In this document: positions 36,510 through 41,722 of the stretch, one piece after another
How the letters are laid out: every line of letters starts with the position of its first letter
Numbering within the stretch: position 1 is the stretch's first letter
Assembly: GCF_001244545.1 (NCBI RefSeq)
Contig: NZ_LN852696.1
Location: 248,001 to 312,000, forward strand
Source: Candidatus Stoquefichus sp. SB1
GTDB lineage: Bacteria; Bacillota_I; Bacilli_A; Erysipelotrichales; Coprobacillaceae
Direction of reading: 5' to 3'
DNA: 64,000 nt
Made by a program: the position numbers and the translations under genes
Notes under the pieces: model-generated
Database searches by the model: none
Told to the model about the DNA's origin: nothing
The model's input: only the letters and a program-made list of their open reading frames with translations

Positions 36510-36793
36510 TTCCTCCTTTATAAATAAAAAATCCGTCCCGACAGAAAAATTCTGTCAAGGACGGATCTATACTCCGCGGTGCCACCTTGTTTCACGATAA
36601 AAAAATCGTGCACTTATCAGATGCTATCACATCTTCGACTACTTACGTAAGTCATAACGTCAAAGAATACTCAGCAGATGCTTTTCACTTTGCCCTCAGT
36701 GGTCCATTTAATAGGCTGCGTTCTGCTTGTTTCCACCATCCAAGCTCTCTAGTAGTGCACGATCTATTTTTATCTCCACCTCAACGGTTTGTT
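36510..36793 (-). promoter_or_regulatory. Tryptophan T-box riboswitch leader
   Basis: On the minus strand the conserved T-box bases AAGGTGGCACCGCGG occupy 36588-36574. Stem I features (AGAGAGCTTGGATGGTGG) are near the 5' end, with a candidate specifier TGG (Trp) at 36706-36704. The leader ends in a terminator, GATCCGTCC / GGACGGAT (36566-36531) with a T run. Uncharged tRNA-Trp would pair with the specifier and the T-box to form the antiterminator and switch the operon on. The specifier assignment rests on position and on the downstream genes. Confidence 0.92.
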
Positions 36794-39828: not shown

Positions 39829-39848
39829 TCGTAAAGAAAGCATATACA

Positions 39849-39878
39849 AACAGACGAGTACTATTGTCTGTTTTTTTA
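39849..39878 (+). terminator. Intrinsic terminator
   Basis: AACAGAC / GTCTGTT stem (39849-39855, 39866-39872) with a seven-T run. Confidence 0.75.
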
Positions 39879-39963: not shown

Positions 39964-40812
39964 ATGAAATATATTGATATTGTGAGAAAAAATGAATGTA
40001 AAGATCGTTTTTGTAATTTATATAATGAAAGTGAATCAATGCTGATTACTAAAAATAAAGGTTTTGAGGTGTTAAGAATATCTATGCCTAAAGGAAATAA
40101 AGGTGTAATGCCTCCGTTGGCTGATCATATTACAGAAGTGTATTATATATTAGAAGGTTGTTTATCTTTTATTTATAAGAATCAGGAAGAATTTTTATAT
40201 AAAGGAGATACATTTGTATTAAGAACTTATCCTAAAGCAATTCCTTATATTGTTCATGAAGATTTAACAATGATATTAAGTACCAATCATCTTGAATTTA
40301 ATAAGCATAAAGAAATATTGGATTTATTACAAGAACAGATGGATTTATTAGAAAACAGTGATTTACATTCAAGAAGCCATTGTGAAAGATTAGAAAAACT
40401 TCTTTATCCAGTCATTAAATATATCCATTTAGAAGCATATCGAGCAGAAAATTTGATTTATGCAGCATGTTACCATGATGTTGGTAAAATAAAAAATGGC
40501 CAAATGAATGAACTGATTGACCACCCATCCCATGGAGCACAGTTAGTGCTTCCTTATTTAGGTGAAGATGTTGCACAAATTATTTTACAGCATCATGAAA
40601 ATGTGGATGGTAGTGGTTTCCCAAATGGGCTTCAAGGAGATGAAATCATATTAGAGGCTAAGATATTAGCGGTTGTTAATAAATATGATCATCTTATCCA
40701 TGATCATCAATTATCACAAATAGAGGCTATTGATTATTTAAAAGTGAATGTAGATAAACAATTTGATAAGAATGCTGTTGATGTATTTATTCAAAGCTTA
40801 GGAGTTAGATAA
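39964..40812 (+). CDS. Cupin-HD domain protein (HD-GYP-like), copy 1
   Basis: 282 residues. N-terminal cupin barrel (about 30-120: MPPLADHITEVYYILEG, YKGDTFVLR) fused to an HD domain: YHDVGK near 170, HP near 188, HHENVDGSGFPNG and LAVVNKYD. Compared with standard HD-GYP domains, the loop after HDVGK is about 15 residues shorter and GYP is GFP. AGGATAAGCCT fixes the start. Followed after one base by a paralogue, so the two arose by duplication and are co-expressed. Probable cyclic-dinucleotide or nucleotide phosphohydrolase with a ligand-sensing cupin; substrate unknown. Confidence 0.78.
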   Translation: MKYIDIVRKNECKDRFCNLYNESESMLITKNKGFEVLRISMPKGNKGVMPPLADHITEVYYILEGCLSFIYKNQEEFLYKGDTFVLRTYPKAIPYIVHEDLTMILSTNHLEFNKHKEILDLLQEQMDLLENSDLHSRSHCERLEKLLYPVIKYIHLEAYRAENLIYAACYHDVGKIKNGQMNELIDHPSHGAQLVLPYLGEDVAQIILQHHENVDGSGFPNGLQGDEIILEAKILAVVNKYDHLIHDHQLSQIEAIDYLKVNVDKQFDKNAVDVFIQSLGVR

Positions 40813-40813
40813 T

Positions 40814-41722
40814 ATGGAAGCTTTAGAAATTATTAGGAAAAATGATGGAATTGATAAATTTGAAACTTTTATTCAAGAAAATGATTCAACTTTGGTTGTT
40901 AGTGAAAATGGAATGGAAGTCATTATTTATCATATGCCAAAAGGTTTAATAGGTTGTTTTGCTCCTATTAGTGAAGAGACTATTGAATCTTATTCAATAT
41001 TAGATGGAAAAATAAAATTAGATGATCAAATAGAAGATCAAATCTTAGAAATAGGGGATAGTTTTATTTTAAAAGGAATCCCTTTTGGAATTCCTTTTAC
41101 AGTTATAGAAGATTTGACACTTGTTGTAAGTACGAATTCAATTATTTATTTAAGTGATAAAGAAAAGAATCAGAAACTATGCGAAATTATGAATAAGGTT
41201 CAAGCAAGTGATGGGGATACAAAAGATCACTGTGAAAGAGTTAAGGAATTGTGCTTATCCATGATACGTTATTTACCTTTTGATTATAGAAGAACAGATG
41301 AACTTTTATTAGCTGCTCGTTTTCATGACTGTGGTAAAATTATGGTACCTAGAGAAATCTTGATTAAACCAGCAAAACTTGATAATGCAGAATATGAGAT
41401 TATGAAAACACATCCTTATGAATCTTACAAAATTGTGAAAACATATTTTAAAAATGATATTGCTGATATTGTTTTACAGCATCATGAGCGTATTGATGGC
41501 AAGGGATATCCATATGGCCTAGCTGGTGATGATATTCTTTTTGAAGCTAAAATTATAGCTGTTGCTGATGCATATGATGCCATGGTTACACCACGTCCTT
41601 ATAATCGAGGAAAAAGTATTGAAGAAGCCATTGCAGAATTAAAGAGAAATGCTGGTACGCAGTTTGATGAACAATGTGTTGAAGCGTTATTACAACATTT
41701 ACAAATGAGTGTAAAGCTATAG
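40814..41722 (+). CDS. Cupin-HD-GYP protein, copy 2
   Basis: 302 residues. Cupin-like N-terminus (about 40-115, with fewer recognisable metal ligands than copy 1), then a full HD-GYP domain: FHDCGKIMVPREILIKPAKL, KTHPYESYKI, HHERIDGKGYP, VADAYDAMV and RPYN. HD-GYP enzymes hydrolyse cyclic di-GMP or related dinucleotides using two or three metals. Here no response-regulator receiver is attached; the cupin replaces it. The start is one base after the stop of copy 1. Acting together, copy 2 looks catalytic and copy 1 possibly regulatory. Confidence 0.82.
   Translation: MEALEIIRKNDGIDKFETFIQENDSTLVVSENGMEVIIYHMPKGLIGCFAPISEETIESYSILDGKIKLDDQIEDQILEIGDSFILKGIPFGIPFTVIEDLTLVVSTNSIIYLSDKEKNQKLCEIMNKVQASDGDTKDHCERVKELCLSMIRYLPFDYRRTDELLLAARFHDCGKIMVPREILIKPAKLDNAEYEIMKTHPYESYKIVKTYFKNDIADIVLQHHERIDGKGYPYGLAGDDILFEAKIIAVADAYDAMVTPRPYNRGKSIEEAIAELKRNAGTQFDEQCVEALLQHLQMSVKL

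Follow-up and report, generated by a model that had tools for sequence, protein, structure and literature searches.

Two adjacent cupin-HD-GYP genes

In Candidatus Stoquefichus sp. SB1, a stretch of 64,000 nucleotides (contig NZ_LN852696.1, positions 248,001 to 312,000; hereafter the window) contains two paralogous genes on the + strand, the stop codon of the first being separated from the start codon of the second by 1 base. The first gene (copy 1; 39964..40812, +) codes for a cupin-HD-GYP-like protein of 282 amino acids with both lid loops of the active site shortened; it comprises a cupin domain without HxH metal motif (residues ~1–110; 39964..40293, +) and an HD domain starting at residue 133 (40360..40812, +). 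The second gene (copy 2; 40814..41722, +) encodes a cupin-HD-GYP protein of 302 amino acids with a complete motif set, predicted to be a cyclic di-GMP (c-di-GMP) phosphodiesterase, in which the cupin domain (residues ~1–110; 40814..41143, +) is followed by an HD-GYP domain, likewise from residue 133 (41210..41722, +). The ATG of copy 1 at 39964 is preceded by GGAGG, so that an upstream TTG listed as a possible start is not needed. A terminator-like hairpin (39848..39873, +; consensus match alone) separates copy 1 from a DJ-1 gene, which suggests that the two copies constitute a transcription unit of their own; two such hairpins were found, as compared to 0.4 expected.

The two proteins align over nearly their full length, with 36% identity (E value 3e-64) in a single BLASTP comparison and 38% identity in the multiple alignment. 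Copy 2 matches nearly the whole Pfam profile HD_5 (121 bits, profile positions 14–169); the match of copy 1 is confined to its second half (71 bits, positions 78–168). Assignment of copy 1 to the HD superfamily is supported by PF01966 (43 bits, cut-off 22) and by Foldseek matches to HD-GYP structures. No Pfam match was obtained for the N-terminal domains of copies 1 and 2 themselves, and Cupin_2 was matched by the N-terminal domains of 12 of 15 family members (best 2.7e-9), the window copies not being among the 12. AlphaFold models of copies 1 and 2 (mean predicted local distance difference test scores of 86.6 and 82.8, respectively) consist of an all-beta N-terminal domain followed by a helical domain, and cupins as well as HD-GYP structures are among the ranked Foldseek matches of both models. 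Both N-terminal domains are assigned to the cupin superfamily by these structural matches and by the sequence profile of the relatives. A first-pass annotation of this DNA, made from the sequence alone, had described two adjacent paralogs fusing a cupin to an HD-GYP domain; the open reading frames, the HD_5 matches, the Cupin_2 matches of the relatives and the models all bear this out.

The metal-binding cupin motif G(X)5HXH(X)3-4E(X)6G was sought in 38 family members, none of which has an HxH in the motif region, and a metal-dependent cupin enzyme was rejected on this ground. Because the motif is absent throughout the family, the cupin, judged by its sequence, is more likely a ligand-binding or dimerizing module than an enzyme; it may sense a ligand directly, as the first-pass annotation had suggested.

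Active sites of the two copies

Copy 2 contains the motifs HDCGK and HHERIDGKGYP, which conform to the HDxGK and HHExxDGxGYP signatures of HD-GYP domains; the full motif set previously read from its translation, including DGKGYP, is thus present. In its HD-GYP part only, copy 2 matches (2.7e-29) the structure of PmGH, a c-di-GMP phosphodiesterase of Persephonella marina. In PmGH numbering, it possesses D183, D at 185, H189, H221, D222, K225, H250, H276, H277, Y285, D305, D308 and R314, which include all eight metal ligands as well as D183, K225 and D308, with Asp at the position of E185. Copy 2 is most plausibly a stand-alone, one-component c-di-GMP phosphodiesterase, and resembles a typical representative of a widely distributed enzyme family.

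Copy 1 retains the equivalents of D183, H189, H221, D222, K225, H250, H276, H277 and D308, but has His at position 185, Phe at position 285 (GFP for GYP) and Asn at position 305, and R314 is absent. Of the eight metal ligands, six remain (E185 being replaced by His and D305 by Asn), as do the catalytic Asp and Lys. A gap of 13 residues follows HDVGK, and DGSGFP is found where copy 2 has DGKGYP. Both active-site loops, L7/8 and L10/11, are short, with 11 residues each as compared to 24 and 15, respectively, in all 37 other members. Among 49 positions conserved in the family, 30 are preserved in copy 1, among them HD, HH and the two catalytic residues (Asp and Lys), and 19 are lost, whereas the other members tested lose two to five; the losses are concentrated in and around the two loops, and the metal core is retained. 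The alignment confirms that copy 1 is reduced, with the shorter loop after HDxGK and the GFP noticed in the first-pass annotation, and adds the loss of four residues including an RPY segment, the exchange of a metal-ligand Asp for Asn, and the His at the E185 position.

The E185 position is variable in relatives, too: it is occupied by Lys or Ser in the proteins of loci L055–L057 and by His in copy 1 and L170, all outside the described HD-GYP groups with E/D and Y/F. A single-copy relative in genome G071 (L123:5561-6472) has Met at the position of the essential Lys225 and NGTGYP for DGxGYP, and may be impaired as well.

Family, duplication history and c-di-GMP network

Full-length relatives of about 300–340 amino acids occur in the same family in three species of one genus (L055–L057), where they adjoin genes for a MATE-type transporter and an RNase M5-like protein (assigned by reading the sequences), and also in further families of this class. 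The class to which Clostridium neonatale belongs yielded cupin-HD-GYP proteins in 3 of 391 genomes, and that of a Neobacillus in 23 of 299; residues and loops were checked for 23 proteins of the class-wide search. These numbers of family members represent samples, not a census, and most matches in the selected genomes searched covered the HD-GYP part alone. In genomes with two cupin-HD-GYP copies, these lie apart, and no second gene of this type adjoins any of the 33 loci examined (in those of 3 kb, only the nearest neighbors are visible). The architecture is established and usually single; of the two features for which a search had been advised, the domain architecture was found, is not rare and occurs in single copies across Bacillota, but its tandem arrangement was not found at any of these other loci. 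Full-text search of the open literature, with matches mostly judged by title, did not surface such a stand-alone family, to whose wide distribution in Bacillota the present data point.

In seven relatives, the gene immediately upstream of the single cupin-HD-GYP copy codes for a small protein of about 120–138 amino acids, which begins with a signal-peptide-like stretch and has DPxxV conserved at its end (L116:6650-7048, L117:5722-6105, L118:5403-5768, L119:6409-6768, L120:7207-7608, L121:6448-6813 and L122:6552-6965). The protein of L120, the only one scanned, did not match any Pfam model.

Copies 1 and 2 are sisters in phylogenetic trees, both for the HD-GYP domain (support 96/93) and for the full-length protein (99/95), although the placement of so long a branch as that of copy 1 is uncertain. 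By this evidence, copy 1 is the product of a lineage-specific tandem duplication. In the only congener compared, which lacks the pair, the DJ-1 and YaaA genes directly adjoin each other, reflecting either gain here or loss there; as the flanking genes occur there on their own, the idea that the pair belongs to a conserved operon was rejected.

The genome of strain SB1 codes for 45 GGDEF domains, 17 EAL domains and one DAC domain (cyclic di-AMP synthase), and a simple scan identified an intact GGDEF motif in 13 of the 15 best GGDEF loci. The first-pass annotation had considered the second messenger unclear and had proposed looking for GGDEF or CdaA genes; because the genome harbors so many GGDEF and EAL domains, c-di-GMP is expected to be the messenger and substrate. 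Its observation that no GGDEF protein is encoded in the window was correct, as none of the 45 matches is located there. Its statement that HD-GYP domains normally follow receiver domains was too strong. The genome encodes seven HD-GYP-type proteins including this pair; the others have receiver, GGDEF or HD partners, with a Pfam receiver domain in only two of the five, and among the thousands of HD-GYP domain architectures PAS is the commonest sensor (PMC8846402). One protein of strain SB1 (357 amino acids; L125:2650-3720, corresponding to C6:802649-803719) combines a divergent N-terminal HD domain and an intact C-terminal HD-GYP domain in one chain, so that a divergent and an intact domain are paired a second time in this genome. 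An Rfam scan did not reveal a c-di-GMP riboswitch near the pair; the sole match in the window was a T-box leader (RF00230, 94.3 bits, 36554-36793, – strand) upstream of trp-like genes on the – strand.

Possible roles of copy 1 and comparison with known systems

We assign a probability of roughly 0.5 to the reading that copy 2 is a c-di-GMP phosphodiesterase and copy 1 a catalytically impaired paralog retained as its partner or regulator. In copy 2, the cupin devoid of a metal motif would provide a ligand-binding and/or dimerization input, and the HD-GYP domain the output. Copy 1, born by tandem duplication in this lineage, then lost both loops capping the active site (L7/8 and L10/11 of PmGH) and two metal ligands, while preserving the fold and the inner metal core; it would have been retained for its regulatory effect on copy 2, exerted, for instance, through mixed dimers or through competition for the cupin ligand. 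The activity of PmGH depends on D183, K225 and most metal ligands and is greatly lowered by the D305A exchange; the lid of Bd1817 is made up of loops L7/8 and L10/11 (PMC4159591). A more elaborate version, which we regard as rather doubtful, is that copy 1, a lidless HD-GYP paralog equipped with a separate cupin, assembles into mixed dimers with the intact copy 2, such that a dedicated pseudoenzyme controls a c-di-GMP phosphodiesterase and senses the same or a rival ligand. Copy 1 in any case is a natural experiment in which two active-site loops have been removed and the metal core left, which opens the functions of the lid and of pseudo-HD-GYP proteins to direct testing.

Several points speak against this reading of the pair. 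Since the D305A variant of PmGH retains some activity, and Y285A and R314A have little effect (PMC4159591), copy 1 may still hydrolyze something. An interaction of the two copies is a guess, and this genome is the only one in which the tandem pair was encountered, so that conservation of the pair cannot inform about its function.

The main rival, which we consider unlikely, is that copy 1 is an active HD phosphohydrolase of changed specificity, its lidless, open site accepting a different substrate such as pGpG or another nucleotide, and that the pair catalyzes successive or separate reactions. The catalytic Asp and Lys and the six metal ligands preserved in copy 1 would fit such an activity, as would its score with the generic HDIG model, which exceeds that of copy 2 (23.7 versus 19.7 bits, both below the cut-off); however, no neighboring gene hints at a substrate.

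Less probable still is that copy 1 has been decaying since the duplication, being functionless now or having lost its function only recently. Its branch is about four times as long as that of copy 2 (1.84–1.89 versus 0.47–0.50), and with fixed topology the median ratios are 2.4 and 2.7, with the excess in both domains; this acceleration, the 19 conserved positions gone and the congener without the pair are consistent with decay. When neutral change was simulated, however, a frame of the length of copy 1 survived 3 of 4000 runs with 0.2 draws per site and 0 of 4000 with 0.5, and the branch over which copy 1 has stayed intact far exceeds such survival. Because a neutral frame of this length almost never stays open, copy 1 has been maintained as a gene over most of its history, and the same test makes a pseudogene unlikely. 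The clustering of the losses at the two loops and their surroundings, sparing the metal core, also argues against decay. Least probable is a c-di-GMP receptor like DvhD, whose inactive HD-GYP domain binds c-di-GMP and dimerizes on binding (PMC13090378), as the HD and HH metal residues lost in DvhD are kept in copy 1, and the loop bearing the guanine-binding Arg/Lys of PmGH is missing from it.

Among characterized proteins, PmGH (4mcw) shares its catalytic set with copy 2, a carboxylate at the E185 position included, but the cupin lies outside the match, and copy 1 differs by the absence of E185, D305 and both loops. Among PDB entries, copy 1 is closest in sequence to the bi-metal HD-GYP protein PA4781 (4r8z; 1.1e-9), which has the same fold, but copy 1 keeps fewer of the active-site features. 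CuxR of Sinorhizobium meliloti, listed as a cupin-domain c-di-GMP receptor (PMC10519070), likewise ties a cupin to c-di-GMP signaling, but is not an HD-GYP protein, and the likeness is a lead only as to the cupin ligand. Bd1817 (3tm8), an HD-GYP protein without the Tyr and described as inactive, resembles copy 1 in its divergent GYP motif and in the regulatory role suggested; its lid is closed, whereas that of copy 1 is lost. The HD-GYP receptor DvhD (9rbz, 9rc0) is non-standard and regulatory, as proposed for copy 1, but differs from it in the HD and HH residues. V-cGAP3 (5z7c), to which two stretches could be aligned, and the HD-[HD-GYP] proteins also combine a divergent domain with an intact HD-GYP domain; in these proteins both are fused in a single chain, whereas copies 1 and 2 are separate genes with separate starts, each providing its own cupin.
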